Assembly: GCA_021811615.1 (NCBI GenBank)
Contig: JAJZNW010000031.1
Span: 1-64,000, forward strand
DNA length: 64,000 nucleotides
Reading direction: 5' to 3'
From: Bacteroidota bacterium
Lineage (GTDB): Bacteria; Bacteroidota; Ignavibacteria; Kryptoniales; JAKASW01
Position numbers and translations under genes: made by a program
The notes under the pieces: generated by a model
What the model was told of the DNA's origin: nothing
Databases searched by the model: none
The model's input: the letters and a program-made list of their open reading frames with translations, nothing else
In this document: positions 47,256 to 59,449 of the stretch, piece by piece
How the letters are laid out: each line of letters opens with the position of its first letter
Position numbering within the stretch: the stretch's first letter is position 1

Positions 47256-47474
47256 GTGGAGACATTCACATATAGCGAGGCGAGGCAGAAACTGGCCAAG
47301 TTGCTGGACAAGGCAAAGAAGGAAGGAAGCGTCCTCATCAAGAGGCGGGATGGATCTGTCTTCGAGCTGAGGCCCGTCAACGGGAAAAAGTCGCCTCTTG
47401 ACGTAAAGGGGGTGGACCTAGGCCTGAACAGCAAGGAGATTTCTGAGATACTTAGAGAGATAAGGGAGAGATAA
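47256..47474 (+). CDS. Phd/YefM-family antitoxin, apparently orphan
   Basis: 72 aa METFTYSEARQKLAKLLDKAKKEGSVLIKRRDGSVFELRPVN...; no toxin ORF follows. Confidence 0.82.
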   Translation: METFTYSEARQKLAKLLDKAKKEGSVLIKRRDGSVFELRPVNGKKSPLDVKGVDLGLNSKEISEILREIRER

Positions 47475-47510
47475 CGGCTCACCCTCCGCCGTATGTTTAA
47501 CCGGCACGTT

Positions 47511-47585
47511 TCGAGGAACGCTGGGCCGAAGAAGACGAGCGGCAAGCAGGAGCTCTTTGAGTCGCTAATAAACCAGGTGCTATAG
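47511..47585 (+). pseudogene. 3' remnant of a second xylA (75 nt)
   Basis: Encodes [24 protein letters not shown] against the XylA end [24 protein letters not shown]; copy 2 of the repeat. Confidence 0.88.
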
Positions 47586-47704
47586 ACAGCCGGTCCTTCG
47601 GACTTCTCAGTCCGATCCTTGAACTATCCTCACCGCCTGCCGCGCGTTCTTTCGCTCAGACTACTACAAGGGGCTTGAGGTAACAGCTCGCCGAGATTTG
47701 CACG

Positions 47705-47800
47705 TTATTTGATGAAAAGCTTCAAGGCAATGTATGTTACAAAAACCGTAACAAACCACCGAACGAACTCTCTCAGATAAGGGGATTTAATCCGGTACAT
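47705..47800 (-). CDS. Micro-peptide 1 (31 aa)
   Basis: SD AAAGGAATT then MYRIKSPYLREFVRWFVTVFVTYIALKLFIK*; shares its first 14 residues with 47939-48028. Confidence 0.65.
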   Translation of the reverse strand: MYRIKSPYLREFVRWFVTVFVTYIALKLFIK

Positions 47801-47938
47801 CTTGCTAATTCCTTTCTTAAATCAAATCACCGCCATCATCCGGCTCACTCAAGCGCATGCGTTAGGTTTGGCGACAAAAGGGGTAGCTATTGACCTCCCC
47901 GATCCCAATCGGTAGAAGAGGCCTTTGCTATCGGTCAC

Positions 47939-48028
47939 TTAACCAAGAAGTTGATGGTCAATTACATCCCCAGTGGTTATAGGAATTCTTACAAACTCTC
48001 TGAGATAAGGTGATTTTATGCGATACAT
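47939..48028 (-). CDS. Micro-peptide 2 (29 aa)
   Basis: SD AAGGAGAA then MYRIKSPYLREFVRIPITTGDVIDHQLLG*; N-terminal 14 aa identical to micro-peptide 1. Confidence 0.65.
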   Translation of the reverse strand: MYRIKSPYLREFVRIPITTGDVIDHQLLG

Positions 48029-48042
48029 AGAAGTTCTCCTTC

Positions 48043-48522
48043 TCAGTCCGCGAGTCCAGTTTGACTCTTCGTTTTGATCAACTCGTCGATACTCCACCTG
48101 TGAGTTCTTATCGTCGACAGCCGCATCCCAATGGAAAGCAAGACTAGATCTATGGCGGCCGAGGTGAGGCCAATATTTTCGCGGACGACGGACCCGAAGC
48201 ATCCGCAAGCAACGTTGTTCCCTCGTATGATCTCGACTATCACGGCGAGCAGGAAGATCAGAGAAAGAAATGACAGCACGGCGGCCGAGAGTCTACTGAA
48301 GAAGCCTGCGGCGAGGGAGAGCCCAAAAGAGATTTCTGATGAGACGACTGCAACTGCGAAAGCGGGCACGAGACGTATCGGCAGGATATTGTACGCATTG
48401 ACGGTTAGAATGAAACCGTGCATTGAGGCGGCTTTCAATATTCCGGCGGCGGCGAATATGGCGCCGAGCAGTACTCTCGCCGCAAAGGCGATGGCATCCC
48501 GTCTTGAATCTCCGCCGGGCAA
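48043..48522 (-). CDS. MauE/DoxX-like redox-associated membrane protein
   Basis: Four-TM pattern; ARVLLGAIFAAAGILKAASMHGF...CGCFGSVVRENIG with the CGCFG motif. Confidence 0.85.
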   Translation of the reverse strand: MPGGDSRRDAIAFAARVLLGAIFAAAGILKAASMHGFILTVNAYNILPIRLVPAFAVAVVSSEISFGLSLAAGFFSRLSAAVLSFLSLIFLLAVIVEIIRGNNVACGCFGSVVRENIGLTSAAIDLVLLSIGMRLSTIRTHRWSIDELIKTKSQTGLAD

Positions 48523-48532
48523 ATGGCGACCG

Positions 48533-49246
48533 TCAGTTCATCGGATGTAAAGGAGAGCCGCTCGATACGGCGCTTATCACCATCTGGAAAGCAACGCCGA
48601 GAAGCCAGGCTCCTGTGACAATCAAAGTGGATTTAATCTTTCGGAAGCCGGTTACGACACTAATGCCGATAGCCAGCGTGGTCACATACCAGATTGTAAA
48701 GACATTGATGCTGTTCAGGAATATGAAAAGCGGGAGATTCGACATTTTGTTCTTCATCAAGAAATCCAGGCCGATGATGGCCTGCAAATCCGTCGCGCGG
48801 TGTATGGATCCGGTTCCTTTAATGTATAAAACAAGCAGGTTCACCAAGCTCATTAAGAGGAGTATCATCTCTGAATACGCCACTATTGAAAAGACCGTTC
48901 TGTAATTCAATTTCGGAGGCGCATCGAGAAGGATGCATGTAAAATAAAGGAGGGCGGCAAGGAATCCCCATTTGATCAGCACGACAATCGGGACAAGGAG
49001 CAATCCTACGTACTCGAATCGTTCCGAAAGTGCCAGCGCTCTGCCGGCCTCCTGGGCACTCAACTTGCTCAAAAGCATTTGGCCGGCAATTTCGTTTGAG
49101 AACGGCAGCGTGAACCACGCGACAACTATTGAGATCATTGATATTGTCGCAAAGGCAAGGACCCACCGAGGTTGTTCTTTTAAATTTTCAAAGACGTCCG
49201 TGGGAGTTGCAAAAACGTTTACAAGGTTCGACAGCTTCAGAGCCAT
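48533..49246 (-). CDS. Yip1-domain membrane protein
   Basis: 237 aa; LVNVFATPTDVFENLKEQPRWVLAFATISMISIVVAW..., several TM segments. Confidence 0.82.
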   Translation of the reverse strand: MALKLSNLVNVFATPTDVFENLKEQPRWVLAFATISMISIVVAWFTLPFSNEIAGQMLLSKLSAQEAGRALALSERFEYVGLLLVPIVVLIKWGFLAALLYFTCILLDAPPKLNYRTVFSIVAYSEMILLLMSLVNLLVLYIKGTGSIHRATDLQAIIGLDFLMKNKMSNLPLFIFLNSINVFTIWYVTTLAIGISVVTGFRKIKSTLIVTGAWLLGVAFQMVISAVSSGSPLHPMN

Positions 49247-50022
49247 GACAACTTCTTCTTTTCCTTTTGCTCGCCGTCTTTCGAGACAACGTCGATGAAG
49301 ATCTCTTCCAGGGACTGATACGTTTCCTGGCTCACCTCATCTTTAATTTTCTTCCTAATATCTTCGGTCCTGGACTGGAAGACCAACTTGCCTTTATTGA
49401 TAATTGCGACCTCGTCACAGAGCTTTTCGACAGTGTCAAGATTATGAGAACTCAAAAGAATGGAGGTTCCACCACGGGACATTTCGCCAAGCATGTCTTT
49501 GATCTGCCTGGCAGCCACAGGGTCGGTCCCTTCAAGTGGTTCATCCAAGATCAAGAGCTTTGGTCTATGGATGACTGCAGCCGCAAGAGAGAGTTTCTTC
49601 TTCATACCTGCAGAATAGGTTTCGATGAAATCACGCCCCTTGTCTTCCAATTCGAAGAATTCTATAAGATCATTTGAGCGTTCTTCGATCTCTTGCCTTT
49701 CGAGTCGATACATCATACCAACGAACGTCAAATATTCTTTTGCCGTTAATTTCTCTATGTAGACAGGTTGATCAAGAACAAAACCGGCATTGCGTTTATA
49801 TCTGTAGTCGGATTTGGTCACGCTCTTGCCAAAAAAGCGAATCTCTCCTGATTCGGGCTTGAGCAGCCCCGCCAATATGTTGATGGTTGTACTCTTTCCG
49901 GCGCCATTTGGGCCCAAGAACCCCATTAACGCGCCCTCCTTCACTTCGAGAGCCAGGCCCGTCAAGGCGTGCGTCCGGGACTTGTAAATTTTACGCAGCC
50001 CGTCTATTTCCAATACGTTCAT
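49237..50022 (-). CDS. ABC transporter ATP-binding protein
   Basis: MGFLGPNGAGKSTTINILAGLLKPESGEI...YSAGMKKKLSLAAAVIHRPKLLILDEPLEGTDPVAARQIKDML. Confidence 0.95.
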   Translation of the reverse strand: MNVLEIDGLRKIYKSRTHALTGLALEVKEGALMGFLGPNGAGKSTTINILAGLLKPESGEIRFFGKSVTKSDYRYKRNAGFVLDQPVYIEKLTAKEYLTFVGMMYRLERQEIEERSNDLIEFFELEDKGRDFIETYSAGMKKKLSLAAAVIHRPKLLILDEPLEGTDPVAARQIKDMLGEMSRGGTSILLSSHNLDTVEKLCDEVAIINKGKLVFQSRTEDIRKKIKDEVSQETYQSLEEIFIDVVSKDGEQKEKKKLSWL

Positions 50023-50681
50023 GAAACACCATCCATAAGTTCAAACCTTTTGTCAAGCAGCAAAGTGGTCCACCTCGGAATCAGAAGGATGTGAAAAACT
50101 AAGATCGCTGAAACAAGCAATGCGAGACATACGAGAGGCTGAATGATCGCCGAGATGACGAATGCAAATGTAAAGAGACCGATGATAATACCTGAAAACA
50201 GGAAAGTGAGAATGTCATACTCTTCGGGAGCGGTCCATTCTAAGACGAACAGATTGCGCGTGAAGATTGCAGCGAACGAAATATAGACAGAATACATCAA
50301 ACTCCTGATAAGAACGATGAAAGGAAGTCTGAACCAGATGAACGAGAACCATGAAATCACAATGGTGAACAGCAGGACGACAATTATCCCAGAGTAGTTC
50401 TTAACTATCACAAATTCTCTATAGTCAATTGGAAGCGGAGAGACTTCTCTAAGGGTTATTCCCAGAGACCGATAGTGTTGTCTTAGTGTAGAACTCAATA
50501 CGATTGCGGTCACGAAGCTCAGCGAAATCGGGTTTCGTATTGCGATTTGGGTTACGTTTCGGGAGTGTGTATAGTGGGCTAACAGGGCCACAGCTACCGG
50601 AATGAGGGCGGCTGCCAATAGTATTCGATCTTGCCGGTTCAGCAGACGCACGTCAAGAAGGATTGGCTGAAAAATCAACAC
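50019..50681 (-). CDS. Multi-TM protein, probable ABC permease component
   Basis: 220 aa, several TM segments; overlaps the ATPase start. Confidence 0.7.
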   Translation of the reverse strand: MLIFQPILLDVRLLNRQDRILLAAALIPVAVALLAHYTHSRNVTQIAIRNPISLSFVTAIVLSSTLRQHYRSLGITLREVSPLPIDYREFVIVKNYSGIIVVLLFTIVISWFSFIWFRLPFIVLIRSLMYSVYISFAAIFTRNLFVLEWTAPEEYDILTFLFSGIIIGLFTFAFVISAIIQPLVCLALLVSAILVFHILLIPRWTTLLLDKRFELMDGVS

Positions 50682-50685
50682 CGGA

Positions 50686-51402
50686 TCAATATCCTATCTT
50701 AAGAAGGTTCAGTGCCAAAGAGTACATCGACTTAATCACAGAGGAGATAATTCCGATTCGTAAAAACAGGAACACCATGATAAGGAACAACATGGGGAGT
50801 GTTTGACTGACAATTTTGCCAAACTTCTCTGCTGTCCTGGTAATTACAATTAGCAGGTAAGAGATAAGTGTGTTTTCCATGAGAAGCATCAGCGAGAACA
50901 GCAATGTCAATCTGAGAAGTGAATCGGTGTTATTACAGATGGTGTATACAGCAATTACAAAAAAGGGAAGGAGATAGACCAGTATCCTGGAATCCGTAAG
51001 CAACACAAAGAACACAGTGCCGAAATATCTTGGTTTGGACAGTGGGTACAACTTCATTCTTCTGGGCGATATCACAGTGTCAAAGCTCGCCCTTGCGGTA
51101 GTGTTGATTACCCAAGCTCCAAAGAAAATGACGAGGAGCAAATCCATGCTGTACGCGATGTTTCTCTCGAGCAGGTTAGCCGGAGACAACAGAAAAGCCA
51201 TTGCGACCAGCGTTGCATTTAAGACCCCTAATAACAAATTTATTATTACTATGCTTCCGCGATTTCTTTTCAGAACGGCTACATATAGACCTCGCAAAAC
51301 AACCAGGTTGTTGCGATGAGTTATTTCACTCGGTATAGAAGGCATTTTGCTCTTTAGGGTTAGATCAAACTCACTTATTACATCGGAGTTCAAGCAAACC
51401 AA
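50686..51402 (-). CDS. Multi-TM protein, probable ABC permease component
   Basis: 238 aa, several TM segments; adjacent to the preceding gene. Confidence 0.7.
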   Translation of the reverse strand: MVCLNSDVISEFDLTLKSKMPSIPSEITHRNNLVVLRGLYVAVLKRNRGSIVIINLLLGVLNATLVAMAFLLSPANLLERNIAYSMDLLLVIFFGAWVINTTARASFDTVISPRRMKLYPLSKPRYFGTVFFVLLTDSRILVYLLPFFVIAVYTICNNTDSLLRLTLLFSLMLLMENTLISYLLIVITRTAEKFGKIVSQTLPMLFLIMVFLFLRIGIISSVIKSMYSLALNLLKIGY

Positions 51403-51446
51403 ATCTATGCTTGAACTCCTGCAACGGCAGATGCTACCAGATTACT

Positions 51447-51746
51447 TCAGAGCGGTTGCGGAATACACGCGGCCGCTATTCCCGTACCTGCTTGGGCTAC
51501 TATGACTCCAAATAGAACCCATCCAACAGGGCCTGAAAGTCCTGCTGCTATCAATCCTAGCCCTTCACCGGCTAGTCCAAGTGCGCATGCGAGGGTTCCT
51601 CCAGTCACAGCTGCCAAAGTGGCGCTGGATAGCACATGCGAGTCTAATGTGGTTTGCGCTGATCTTGCTGGCGTAAGAGGTGTGGCCGACGCCAAGACTG
51701 TAAGTGCCAGCGACAAAAGCAGTGTTAGGCTGATTACCTTTCTCAT
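51447..51746 (-). CDS. Candidate bacteriocin-like precursor with Sec-like signal and double-glycine leader
   Basis: SD GAGG then MRKVISLTLLLSLALTVLASATPLTPARSAQTTLDSHVLSSATLAAVTGG|TLACALGLAGEGLGLIAAGLSGPVGWVLFGVIVAQAGTGIAAACIPQPL*. Confidence 0.7.
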   Translation of the reverse strand: MRKVISLTLLLSLALTVLASATPLTPARSAQTTLDSHVLSSATLAAVTGGTLACALGLAGEGLGLIAAGLSGPVGWVLFGVIVAQAGTGIAAACIPQPL

Positions 51747-51921
51747 ATTTACCTCAACGTTCATGGTGTTTTTGTTTGGTTAATTAATTCTTGCTCACTG
51801 CGGCCTGCCTGTCTTTCGCAGACCTGGAAAGCACGGTGCGGCGGCCGAACCGCATCATACTTCCCGCATCCGCAATCGACAGTCCAGTGAGCGAGTTGTG
51901 TGCACACAAAACTCATCGCTT

Positions 51922-52539
51922 CTACTTTATCCTCGTGATCTTGAAAATCAAAGTCTGTCCGTTCCATATCTTTCTGAAATCGGCGAGGCTCATTTCTATC
52001 CTCCCGAGAGAGGGGTCCGATAGTATGACATTCCCGTCCTTCGTGACACTGTCCGCCACCACGAAATGATCGCCATGGACGAATACGATTGCCGGCATCG
52101 GCGCCTTGACGAAGTCGGCTAAAGTATACGTCCAACCCTCTGCGCCGAGCCCCCTGGTCTCAGCCATCTCTTTGAGTGAGAGCATGCTTGATCCTTTTGC
52201 TGTAAGCCCGACATGTCTGTCGATCCCGGATAGGGTTGAACGTATGCCGAAGTGGTCGAAAATCATCTTCAGCGATGCCGGCCCGCAATTGTTTGACATC
52301 GTCTGCATGGTCACCCCTTTTGTGCCGAGGTATTTCGCGCCCATCCACCACGTCTCTGCCCTTCTGAGTGCGGCAGGTGAACTCGTGATGTATACCGTAC
52401 CGACCAGGCCCGCGGCAAGGAAGAGCAATAGCGTCAAACCCGCAAAGGCGATGACTTTTCTACTTTTCGAAGATGCGAGCCTTTCCGACATTACGGCAAA
52501 AAACTCCTCTTTAGGTTTTTCATCGCACCCAGCTTTCAA
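51922..52539 (-). CDS. Stand-alone membrane-anchored C39-family (double-glycine) cysteine peptidase
   Basis: SSKSRKVIAFAGLTLLLFLAAGLVGTVYI TM; MQTMSNNCGPASLKMIFDHFGI (Cys motif), VFVHGDHFVVADSV (His), LSDPSLGRIEM (Asp). Confidence 0.87.
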   Translation of the reverse strand: MKAGCDEKPKEEFFAVMSERLASSKSRKVIAFAGLTLLLFLAAGLVGTVYITSSPAALRRAETWWMGAKYLGTKGVTMQTMSNNCGPASLKMIFDHFGIRSTLSGIDRHVGLTAKGSSMLSLKEMAETRGLGAEGWTYTLADFVKAPMPAIVFVHGDHFVVADSVTKDGNVILSDPSLGRIEMSLADFRKIWNGQTLIFKITRIK

Positions 52540-53105
52540 TTCGCATAATGCTTTGTAAATGATTCTATGGACCGATCCAGAATCTCCGTCTTTACCTCCC
52601 CGAATACTTCGTTCCTGAGGATGAGATTGCTGTCTGCGAAAAGCGTAACCGGGACGAGGGTAATTCTGAATGCCTTTTCAATTTCCGCGCTGTTTCCCAC
52701 GTATACCGGGAACGACACGCCGCTCGCCGCAACTAGAGCTTCCGTCGTATCCGGTCGGCTCACCGATATCCCGACAAAGCGAAGTGCATCTTCGTACTTC
52801 AGCTTCATTCGGTTGAATTCCGACAGCATAGCGATGCAGTGAGGACACCTCGCGCTGAAGACTAAGACGACAGTGGCATTGTCCCGTAGACTTCGGGTAG
52901 TGGTTGGCTTTCCGGCAAGATTTCTAAGACCGATTAACGGGATGCGTGTTCCGATCCGTAGGGGTGTGGCATCTACGCTATTGTGGAGATAAGTCAGGAG
53001 AATGACTGGTATCGTGATTATTACGACTAACCCAGCCAGCGCGATCCACTTTTTTATGAGCCTTTTTTTCACGTCGGCTCCGCACGCATGTTCAGCCAGC
53101 ATCAC
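52536..53105 (-). CDS. Membrane-anchored thioredoxin-like (TlpA/AhpC-TSA) protein
   Basis: TM IALAGLVVIITIPVILLTYL; RIGTRIPLIGLRNLAGKPTTTRSLRDNATVVLVFSARCPHCIAMLSEFNRM (CPHC). Confidence 0.88.
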   Translation of the reverse strand: MMLAEHACGADVKKRLIKKWIALAGLVVIITIPVILLTYLHNSVDATPLRIGTRIPLIGLRNLAGKPTTTRSLRDNATVVLVFSARCPHCIAMLSEFNRMKLKYEDALRFVGISVSRPDTTEALVAASGVSFPVYVGNSAEIEKAFRITLVPVTLFADSNLILRNEVFGEVKTEILDRSIESFTKHYAN

Positions 53106-53228
53106 TATGCCTTCCTTCGCAGCTAAGTCTAGCCTGATTCTACGTTCGGATGGCGGTTACCCTGCTTAAATGTCTTCCCTGTCTTCTTGTACTACCGCCA
53201 GCACTTTGCTGTACTATCTCTTTTCAGG

Positions 53229-53257
53229 ATTATAGCTCGTTCGTTTTAATATGTCAA
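53229..53257 (-). promoter_or_regulatory. Consensus sigma70-type promoter
   Basis: Minus strand TTGACA-TATTAAAACGAACGAGC(17)-TATAAT, about 120 nt upstream of the thioredoxin-like gene. Confidence 0.85.
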
Positions 53258-53501
53258 GAGGCCAGGGCAAATTTCTTACGGTGAAACTTAAGATCCCCTT
53301 GATGAGGTGATTGTGCCATGATGTCATGAGGATAGTAGGCTTGCAAGCTCAGATTGTTTTTGCAAAGCAATCTAATTATCATGGTTCAGATGAACCGGGA
53401 ATGCCTCCCGTTCAGCGATTCGTCTTTTGTTTCTTAAGCACAAATAGAATCCGAAGGAACACGAAACTCCCTGCCGAACCTTCGGGAAAGGAATTGGCTT
53501 C

Positions 53502-56765: not shown

Positions 56766-57557
56766 CTAAAGGAGCCAGTCGATTACTTCGGGATCGTCGT
56801 TACTATCTTTTCTGGTAATATTCACGAATATCTCCTCCAGCGAACCGTAAGTCTCTTTCGTGATTTCATCTTTGATTCTGGTCCGTAGTTCTGCCGTTTT
56901 CGAACGGAAGACCACGCGTCCCCTGTCGATGATCGCCACCTCATCAGTCAGGTCTTCGATGAACGAAAGTATGTGAGAGGTGATCAGTATCGTCTTCCCG
57001 CTCTCCTGCATTTTCATCAGGATTTTCTTCACCTTCACCGCTGAGAGCGCATCCAGCCCGTCGAACGGCTCGTCCAGAACGATCAGCTTCGGGTTGTGAA
57101 TCAGGATGGAGGCGAGCGCGAGCTTCTTCCGCATTCCCTTCGAGTATTCCTCGATCAGCATCCACCTGTGAGATTCCAGCCCGAAGTATTCGAAGAGTAT
57201 GTCCATCCTTTCCTCTATCGCGGCGCGGTCGAGGCCGTAAATCTCTCCGACGAACCGAAGATGTTCCTCGCCGCTCAGGTACACGAAGAGGTCCGCCGTG
57301 TTCTCGAAGAGGACTCCCATGTCTTTCTTTATCGCGATCCCGTCGAGTTTCAGATCCTTCCCGAATACCCTTATGGATCCGCTGTCCGGCACGAGGAGGT
57401 CGGCGATGCAGTTTATCGTGGTCGTTTTTCCCGCCCCGTTCGGACCGATCAGCCCGAAGATCGTCCCTTCCGGGATTTTCAGATTCAGATTGTCGAGAGC
57501 CACCAGGTTTCCAAAGGTCCTGTCGACAGAATCGATCTCGATAATATCTACCGGCAT
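56766..57557 (-). CDS. ABC transporter ATP-binding protein, paralogue of 49237-50022
   Basis: FGLIGPNGAGKTTTINCIADLLVPDSGSI...YSKGMRKKLALASILIHNPKLIVLDEPFDGLD; C-terminal IKDEITKETYGSLEEIFV...DWLL. Confidence 0.95.
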   Translation of the reverse strand: MPVDIIEIDSVDRTFGNLVALDNLNLKIPEGTIFGLIGPNGAGKTTTINCIADLLVPDSGSIRVFGKDLKLDGIAIKKDMGVLFENTADLFVYLSGEEHLRFVGEIYGLDRAAIEERMDILFEYFGLESHRWMLIEEYSKGMRKKLALASILIHNPKLIVLDEPFDGLDALSAVKVKKILMKMQESGKTILITSHILSFIEDLTDEVAIIDRGRVVFRSKTAELRTRIKDEITKETYGSLEEIFVNITRKDSNDDPEVIDWLL

Positions 57558-59209
57558 TTTGCTATCACCCTTTCTTTCCGGTTAAAAAGAATATGCCCGA
57601 TGCTGTTTTCGAATCTTGCCCGAAATCGAAGAAAGAGTAAACCCAGAATTACCTCGGCGAACATGCCCGCAATTTGTGCCGGAAGGTTCCGGTTCAGATT
57701 CATCATCAGAAACATCGCAGCTCCGAAAGCTCCGGCGACAGGAAGGGAGACTATTAATGAATATGCCGAGGCGTCGATTTGCCCCACCGCCGCCGAGAAA
57801 CGGAAAGGGACAGGCTTTACGAAATAGACCGATAGAAGAAGTCCTGTTTCGATCAGAGCAAACCCGGCAAGGAGCATCATCGTGCCGAGGACGATGGATG
57901 AAATCGCGTCGTCCTTCAGCAGCATTGCCAGCGCGAAGAACATGATTCCACCGAGCAATGCCATGTATCCCGCCACGGTTCTCTTCGAACTGAGAATTGC
58001 CGCGGTGCCGACCGGCCGGATGAAGTAATTAACGATCCCGTGATAATCATTGCTGAAGACGGAGCCCGAATACGATATCAAAACGACTGTTTGTATCCAG
58101 TACACCAGGAGGAGAACGGCGCCACCGTGGAACGCGCTGAACCCGGTTCGATGAGAATTCAGGAGAAAGTACGCCGGAAGATAGACCCAGAAGAAAAGCA
58201 GTATCGGTGTCCGGACCATGTTACGCGAAGAACGCAGGGCGTATATGATGTTCTTCTTCGCGAGAGGACTTAACCGCAGCGGCGCTACCCAGCCGGGAAA
58301 AGGGCGGCGTCCGTTCCTGCTTTCCGGGGAAGAGCGGGAGAACATTCGCCTCTTCAACGCCGGCGCTGTTCGGACACTCAACCAGGCCGCCACGAGATTG
58401 GCCCAGACAAGATAAACAATGGCGAGCGACAGGTAACGGACTTCATGGGAGGAACCGATCGCAAAAATTCCATTTACAAATGCGCCGGACGGAAAGTAAT
58501 CCAGGACACCACTCACCGCCAGGATGTGTCCCCTCGTTGGGATGTATCGACCGAACAGCCTGACAGAGACTAACGCGACCGAGGTAAGCGCGAACATGAA
58601 AGGAGCGAATAATCTTCTCATTCTCCTGGAAGAGGCAATCGCCGTCAGGGTGATTCTTGCGATTAACGAAATGCCGCTCACAAACATGAAGAAGAGGAAA
58701 ACAAGAAGGAGAGTTCCGAGCACTGTGGCGGGAGTGAACGGGTTCTTCGGAAGGAAGCATGCGGCGAAGTAAAGAGGAAGAAAGACCAGGTTGAGCGGTT
58801 CCAGCATGCCGGTTGTGATTTCCATCGAAACCCCTTTCCACGTCTCGATCGGATAATACACAAGCTTGTCGAAGAGGAGAACCCTCGATCCGCCGATGAA
58901 CACGACCGCGAGCACGTTCGAAATGAAGATGAAAAAGAGTACGAGGTCTGTGAGAGGCAGCAGAAGCGACGGGTCGCGTCGCGCCATGAGATTAAGCGCG
59001 GCGAACAGGCCGCTCCCCGCGAGAGCGGAGTACATGGAAATAATGAGCACAAGAACGGCGACGGCAACTTTTCCGACGAAGCTCACGTCGCGGATGGCGT
59101 TCATGAAGATGCTCTTCTTCAGCCGTACCAGGATCGCAGTGGAGCGCGCAAAATCGCCGGTTGTCCGGGTAAATACCCTTAACGAGTCAGCTATCCTTAA
59201 TTCAGGCAT
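57548..59209 (-). CDS. Large multi-TM protein, probable ABC permease
   Basis: From MPELRIADSLRVF; many hydrophobic segments; overlaps the ATPase start. Confidence 0.78.
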   Translation of the reverse strand: MPELRIADSLRVFTRTTGDFARSTAILVRLKKSIFMNAIRDVSFVGKVAVAVLVLIISMYSALAGSGLFAALNLMARRDPSLLLPLTDLVLFFIFISNVLAVVFIGGSRVLLFDKLVYYPIETWKGVSMEITTGMLEPLNLVFLPLYFAACFLPKNPFTPATVLGTLLLVFLFFMFVSGISLIARITLTAIASSRRMRRLFAPFMFALTSVALVSVRLFGRYIPTRGHILAVSGVLDYFPSGAFVNGIFAIGSSHEVRYLSLAIVYLVWANLVAAWLSVRTAPALKRRMFSRSSPESRNGRRPFPGWVAPLRLSPLAKKNIIYALRSSRNMVRTPILLFFWVYLPAYFLLNSHRTGFSAFHGGAVLLLVYWIQTVVLISYSGSVFSNDYHGIVNYFIRPVGTAAILSSKRTVAGYMALLGGIMFFALAMLLKDDAISSIVLGTMMLLAGFALIETGLLLSVYFVKPVPFRFSAAVGQIDASAYSLIVSLPVAGAFGAAMFLMMNLNRNLPAQIAGMFAEVILGLLFLRFRARFENSIGHILFNRKERVIAKCR

Positions 59210-59310
59210 TCTGTGGTCCCGATAAATTGCATCACCGTCGATTCCACGATAGTGGAAAATTGATCTGCTGGGATTATAATTGTGGAAATAGATATCAATG
59301 TCAAGTAAGT

Positions 59311-59449
59311 TTTCCCCGGCATAAATGCCGGGGAAATTATGATTGTATGCAGTTATAATTTCTGCAAAAAGCATTAGTGACAGCTGGTTTTGCCCCGACA
59401 TTTATGTCGGGGTAAATGAATCTCCAGGTATTTCCGGGCTTAAGCCCGG
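59311..59449. repeat. Three REP-like palindromes
   Basis: TTTCCCCGGCATAAATGCCGGGGAAA (59311-59336), CCCCGACATTTATGTCGGGG (59393-59412), CCGGGCTTAAGCCCGG (59434-59449). Confidence 0.82.

Follow-up and report, generated by a model that had tools for sequence, protein, structure and literature searches.

Double-glycine peptides are thought to be cleaved at the cytosolic face of the same transporter that exports them. In export of the PCAT/AMS type (class II bacteriocins, ComA, LahT) the C39 peptidase domain is fused to this ATP-binding cassette (ABC) transporter. The stretch of DNA analysed here (the window: 64,000 nt, positions 1 to 64,000 of contig JAJZNW010000031.1, assembly GCA_021811615.1, Bacteroidota bacterium) carries an operon on its minus strand (53102-47705) that shares with this type the C39 fold, the catalytic residues and the leader motif, but differs in that the C39 peptidase is a separate, membrane-anchored and probably periplasmic protein, the precursor has a Sec signal, and the ABC transporter is not of the PCAT type and, among related loci, is often absent. 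It is best read, with a probability of about 0.7, as a peptide-maturation operon in which the double-glycine pathway has moved outside the cytoplasm, with export by Sec, cleavage in the periplasm and a probable toxin accompanied by protection genes. An earlier note on this DNA had proposed a close-packed set of minus-strand genes forming a single maturation unit, to be given up if the C39, precursor and ABC genes proved unlinked elsewhere. All of the listed genes are present, packed tightly or overlapping, in the order TlpA/thioredoxin-like protein, C39 peptidase, precursor, permease halves A and B, ABC ATPase, Yip1, MauE and micro-peptides; the only sizeable gap is the approximately 175 bp from the C39 stop to the precursor start. 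The unit is conserved, and its genes are linked in more than 20 loci.

Searches for the C39 protein covered 60 relatives at first and, with an alignment as query, 391 class genomes. Used singly as a query against genome contigs the protein gave no match, while the alignment-based scan recovered 11 loci. Besides ordinary C39-ABC fusions (open reading frames, ORFs, of more than 700 aa), a standalone, short, membrane-anchored C39 occurs in 23 of the 391 class genomes. Its neighbourhoods consist of the thioredoxin-like gene, C39 and precursor, together with either permease/ATPase genes or a protein designated X, usually followed by Yip1. The hosts are recorded as Ignavibacteria/Ignavibacteriales, plus one Holophagales genome. 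Two loci from other Bacteroidota (L103, L104) have the thioredoxin-like protein, MauE, a signal-plus-GG precursor and C39 in a changed order, L103 also with Yip1 and ABC genes. Standalone C39 proteins of further Bacteroidota (L105-L108) were left out of the set as their gene contexts are unrelated, and a search of plasmids with the C39 protein returned distant matches only, mainly C39-ABC fusions.

Three features had escaped the earlier note: the design of the precursor, a structured RNA between the C39 and precursor genes, and the likeness of Yip1 to YknW. The 99-aa precursor, previously described as plainly hydrophobic, instead has a Sec-type signal at its N-terminus and a double-glycine motif at residues 49-50. 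Leader ends from different loci (e.g. SLSADEMQSIRGG, RLSSVEMISISGG, QLTSDEMVQITGG) fit LSx2ELx2IxGG, the published double-glycine leader pattern (PMC3897388). A detector for such genes (small ORF, signal-like N-terminus, GG-type motif, and at least two Cys after the motif) found matches no more than 1.2 kb downstream of C39 in 20/24 loci (0.69/kb), compared with five matches in 705 strand-kb elsewhere (0.007/kb); as it was built after the candidate precursors had been read, the exact rate is optimistic, but the hundredfold contrast holds. The cores that follow the motif are hydrophobic, 26-55 aa in length, and have 2, 4 or 6 Cys, the count being even in 20/20 (some of these rows are close relatives). 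None of the precursors matches a Pfam or NCBIfam family above cut-off. Weak matches to JUQZ_fam_ocin (E 0.002-0.05) fall in the signal or leader region and were disregarded.

The C39 protein of the window is a standalone protein of 189 aa and the sole C39 domain in its home genome. Neither of two traits of PCAT/class II bacteriocin systems is found, the C39 not being fused to an ABC transporter and the leaders not being free of a Sec signal, as the precursors start signal-like. Loss of the catalytic set had been named as a result that would count against the proposal, but the set is intact: across 23 aligned C39 proteins, Q63, C69 and H142 are present in 23/23 and D159 in 22/23. Among solved structures the nearest in sequence is that of a double-glycine protease domain, 6mpz, and this entry, which was solved with a bound leader peptide, is also the top PDB match to the AlphaFold model of the C39 protein (pLDDT 88.7; rmsd 1.0 A, TM score 0.87 of target). 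By its Gln/Cys/His/Asp set and its fold, the protein belongs to the C39 double-glycine proteases. Because basic residues stand before its single transmembrane segment (TM), the catalytic domain most likely faces the periplasm, in agreement with the orientation first suggested, and there it would cut after the GG of the adjacent precursor's leader.

A C39 protease at work outside the cytoplasm has been described in the functional amyloid system of Pseudomonas, where the periplasmic protein FapD is needed for secretion, although its substrate is uncertain (PMC5557850). FapD differs in being soluble and in belonging to an amyloid operon that has no small GG-leader peptide, and the window C39 scores 41 bits against NCBIfam C39_FapD, far under the 330-bit cut-off. 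The uncertainty over the FapD substrate (PMC5557850) gives some room to the idea that the substrate of the C39 considered here is not the small peptide but some other protein of the envelope, as proposed for FapD, with linkage to the peptide having other reasons. That is very improbable, given that the adjacent gene has a canonical GG leader in nearly all loci, and that a locus found through the RNA, lacking C39, has a peptide without GG (see below).

The ABC and Yip1 proteins had been assigned to export or self-immunity. Export is the weaker half of this suggestion, as an ABC exporter is not needed where the precursors have Sec-type signals and 16 loci lack ABC genes at the site; arguing by analogy, the analysis favours self-immunity as the better reading, that is protection rather than export, because the precursors bring their own Sec route. 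It could be argued that the ABC transporter exports the precursor by the ordinary double-glycine route, with the C39 domain merely split off, since ABC genes adjoin the precursor in the window and other loci (8 in all) and the C39 is related to PCAT peptidases. This is improbable in view of the Sec-type signals, the 16 loci without ABC genes, and the ATPase itself, which groups with ABC-2/drug-protection types and not with PCAT. The two multi-TM proteins reported earlier are both present, and together they correspond to one permease of 511-523 aa in two relatives; neither half has a convincing match in Pfam or NCBIfam.

Where ABC genes are missing they are replaced by protein X, a diverse family of secreted proteins of 170-200 aa with no Pfam match. 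Among the 24 scorable loci, ABC genes occur in 8 and X in 16 (L018, L064, L067, L069-L073, L075, L077-L081, L149, L150), and the two are never together; related genomes reduce these to fewer than 24 independent cases, with the ABC loci coming from at least five families. The AlphaFold model of X is alpha/beta and of moderate quality (pLDDT 72.5), and no PDB match to it was found below E 0.001.

All five aligned Yip1 orthologues match the YknW family (NF052650), the sole NCBIfam family to be matched, while the window protein itself lies under the curated cut-off (73 vs 110 bits). YknWXYZ shields Bacillus from SDP, a 42-aa toxin that is processed and carries a disulfide (PMC4887032). The present system resembles SDP/YknWXYZ of Bacillus subtilis in its predicted exported, processed, hydrophobic disulfide peptide and in the pairing of a YknW-like Yip1 with an ABC transporter (PMC4887032), but processing would here be by C39, and a YknX-type adaptor gene is absent from the operon. 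SdpA, SdpB and SdpI were not found among the operon proteins (Pfam, NCBIfam), and the locus does not qualify as a maturation system of the SDP type. Circular and leaderless bacteriocin clusters share the combination of small hydrophobic peptide, ABC and Yip1 genes (PMC8659200, PMC10707071, PMC11580447), and Yip1 proteins are a recurring component of them, with a presumed part in immunity or transport (PMC11580447, PMC10707071, PMC8659200); such clusters have not been described with a Sec signal plus GG leader, or with the C39/thioredoxin/MauE set. A PADLOC search for known anti-phage defence systems matched operon proteins only as generic ATPases.

In the maturation of methylamine dehydrogenase, the thioredoxin-like protein MauD is paired with the membrane protein MauE. 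The same pairing of proteins is seen in the window, while substrate and operon differ. The earlier identification of thioredoxin-like and MauE proteins as redox partners agrees with their motifs, CxxC being kept in 23/24 loci and CxC in 12/12 examined, and together they probably form disulfides in the core. A Sec-signal, Cys-rich precursor and a DoxX/MauE-type membrane protein are also shared with the bufferins and other MNIO-modified ribosomally synthesised and post-translationally modified peptides (PMC12452194). No MNIO enzyme or DUF2063 partner was found in the operon (Pfam, NCBIfam), where C39 cleavage would take their place. In genome G026 (L017:12657-13967) MauE is seemingly split: a short MauE-like fragment and a complete MauE are separated by an ORF for a membrane-anchored, rhodanese-like protein.

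In 22/24 loci the RNA element lies directly ahead of the precursor gene, behind C39 or, in loci where X stands before the precursor, behind X. Its length is 104-114 nt, rising to 138 nt in G010 through an insertion, and in most loci 33-48 nt separate its 3' end from the precursor start, a nearly fixed distance. It folds as a single long hairpin of four stacked helices (minimum free energy, MFE, z = -6.2 in the window), and the apical loop forms a pseudoknot with a bulge at the stem base. Across 20 sequences, pairing is kept in 89% of cells, 30/33 pairs have double-sided compensatory change, and every pairing measure is higher than in any of the 500 shuffles or slid controls. The Watson-Crick helix between the loop and bulge of one sequence has a mean of 5.5 bp, a value reached by 0/10000 shuffles; shuffled partners give 3.95 (examples of the helix are CGGCC/GGCCG, CGGGC/GCCCG, TGGGC/GCCCA, CTGTCC/GGACAG, CGGTCC/GGACCG and GGCTCC/GGAGCC). 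The element is real as a structure. A DNA role, such as that of a hairpin for recombination by which peptide cassettes are swapped, would suit an element that travels with the precursor gene when the cores are so diverse, but is very improbable beside the conserved pseudoknot, a spacing from the start codon that in most loci barely varies, and the bias at paired columns (119 G-U vs 18 A-C cells) that is expected of a sense RNA strand, from which the sense transcript is taken to be the functional strand. No Rfam family was matched at gathering score; a twister-like ribozyme was considered on account of the loop-to-base pseudoknot, but the Rfam scans were without a match.

A model of the element, R1, matched 24 places in 23 of the 391 class genomes, 22 of which have a standalone C39, and no genome had an extra copy unlinked to the system; among 296 genomes drawn from the phylum there was no match outside the class. 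Most of the matched loci went into building R1, but those of G010, G286, G098 and G183 did not. In G098 the thioredoxin-like gene and the RNA accompany a precursor with signal, GG and four Cys, with the C39 gene 49 kb away. In G183 (L149:7247-8996) the thioredoxin-like gene, RNA and protein X accompany a signal-bearing Cys peptide that lacks GG, and C39 was not found in this genome, so that the GG motif and C39 are coupled, as would be expected from the mechanism. On the other side of the precursor gene, a stem of at least 9 bp follows the stop codon in 14/22 loci, compared with 13% of random stretches, so that folded elements often flank the peptide cistron at both ends. The simplest guess at the role of the RNA is control or stabilisation of the precursor mRNA.

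Taken through, the proposed mechanism would begin with the precursor leaving the cytoplasm by Sec through its N-terminal signal. The membrane-anchored periplasmic C39 would recognise the double-glycine leader behind the signal and cut after GG, and the thioredoxin-like and MauE proteins would make disulfides in the even-Cys hydrophobic core. The mature peptide is probably a membrane-active toxin against neighbours or siblings, from which the producer would most likely be protected by Yip1 together with either the ABC transporter (as in the window) or the secreted protein X, and the upstream pseudoknotted RNA and downstream hairpin probably set precursor expression relative to that of the processing genes. 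Gene content and conservation are firmly established, and the maturation route is strongly implied. A toxin function is likely but open, at slightly better than even odds.

The same Sec-plus-C39 maturation could instead yield a non-toxic peptide that serves as a signal, or that the producer retains in its envelope for a structural or redox role; Yip1, ABC or X would handle or sense this peptide. In one genus the operon has a fixed chromosomal position next to dnaX, and conservation of the core (49%) is no lower than that of the leader (43%), CCxDLWIxxxC being common to one group of precursors; a stable physiological role would account for this as well as a toxin would. Core charge is also neutral to acidic (0 to -6), unlike that of bacteriocins, which are mostly cationic. 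Such a peptide is nevertheless a rather unlikely alternative, as cores vary widely between loci (27% mean identity), the YknW-like Yip1 stands with an ABC of the drug-protection type, and distribution in the home genus is patchy. There, the operon is found in 3/13 genomes. Its neighbours in G000 and G010 are xylA and a large metalloprotease-like gene, one on either side; G009 has it elsewhere, near polA, and in G011 the site is empty, with xylA and the metalloprotease-like gene adjacent and 265 bp apart. Besides the dnaX-side site, the conserved core and the neutral to acidic charge, several other points weigh against a periplasmic double-glycine pathway that makes a toxin. MauE is present in about half of the loci and missing from many, no dedicated outer-membrane exit is encoded in the operon, signal peptides were assigned by eye and from hydropathy rather than with SignalP, and the genomes surveyed are mostly metagenome-assembled. 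The G010 precursor is seemingly frame-shifted between signal and GG (L015:8045-8529), these parts being in different frames, and helix P1 of its RNA carries an insertion; this copy may be decaying or mis-assembled.

Table 1. Features of the operon and its immediate upstream region (coordinates are those of the window).
Feature	Position (nt)	Strand	Basis or remarks
Promoter-like site TTGACA-17-TATAAT	53257-53229	minus	sigma70-like, 12/12 consensus, pattern match only; just upstream of first gene
TlpA/thioredoxin-like protein, membrane-anchored, CPHC	52536..53102	minus	Pfam AhpC-TSA/TlpA-like E 8e-11; same-position orthologues in 20+ loci
C39 double-glycine protease, membrane-anchored, no ABC fusion; Q63 C69 H142 D159	51922..52491	minus	Pfam Peptidase_C39 E 2e-27, alignment, AlphaFold model
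Pseudoknotted RNA element, 5' leader of precursor gene	51787..51898	minus	MFE z -6.2, covariation, pseudoknot shuffles, model R1, no Rfam match
Precursor: signal peptide, double-glycine leader VLSSATLAAVTGG, 49-aa core	51447..51746	minus	sequence; like design beside C39 in 20/24 loci
Predicted mature peptide after GG: TLACALGLAGEGLGLIAAGLSGPVGWVLFGVIVAQAGTGIAAACIPQPL	51450..51596	minus	sequence; even Cys count in 20/20 cores
12-bp hairpin without T-run, right after precursor stop codon	51385..51419	minus	structure comparison across 22 loci
Permease half A, multi-TM	50686..51402	minus	no Pfam/NCBIfam match; homologue of L017 half A and L015 single permease
Permease half B, multi-TM	50019..50681	minus	no Pfam/NCBIfam match; homology to relatives' permeases
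ABC ATPase, drug/lantibiotic-protection type	49237..50022	minus	Pfam ABC_tran E 2e-28; NCBIfam DrrA, GldA, galliderm_ABC best, all below cut-off
Yip1-family membrane protein, nearest NCBIfam YknW	48533..49246	minus	Pfam Yip1 E 4e-14; YknW 73 bits (cut-off 110)
MauE/DoxX-type redox membrane protein, CGC motif	48043..48522	minus	Pfam MauE E 2e-20; CxC conserved
Degenerate micro-peptide copy	47939..48028	minus	first 14 residues shared with 47705-47800 micro-peptide, then diverges
31-aa single-TM micro-peptide	47705..47800	minus	relatives in G010 (two copies, operon-flanking) and probably G009

Two micro-peptides had been counted with the operon. One is whole and the other is a degenerate copy (Table 1), and as they are seen only in G000, G010 and probably G009, all of one genus, they were rejected as core parts. 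In G010 the upstream micro-peptide copy adjoins the gene for a 301-aa protein (L015:9933-10838) with a signal-like start and a C-terminal stretch that is glycine-rich, has two Cys and is bacteriocin-like. Beyond the downstream end of the operon lie a Phd-like antitoxin ORF (47256-47474) and a second copy of the last ~20 xylA codons (47493-47585), which looks as if made by an insertion; a related fused remnant occurs in G010 (L015:3896-4069). On the other side, just past the divergent metalloprotease-like gene, is a second pair of ABC ATPase and 617-aa permease (56766-59401), the ATPase of which is related to that of the operon (231 bits).

A search of the literature, with most subscription papers outside its reach, found no description of this combination. 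Only tentatively may the system be regarded as a new class of ribosomal peptide system, in which Sec export is uncoupled from leader removal by a periplasmic C39, protection by ABC or X is exchangeable, and a dedicated cis-regulatory pseudoknot RNA possibly senses the redox or peptide state of the envelope. Leader removal apparently takes place after Sec export, which makes the two steps separable for study, and the question of what periplasmic C39 proteases such as FapD act upon gains a clear candidate leader. A signal plus GG beside a standalone C39 provides a search rule for peptides that current miners would miss. Finally, a strongly covarying pseudoknotted RNA, absent from Rfam, is tied to one peptide system and is directly testable.

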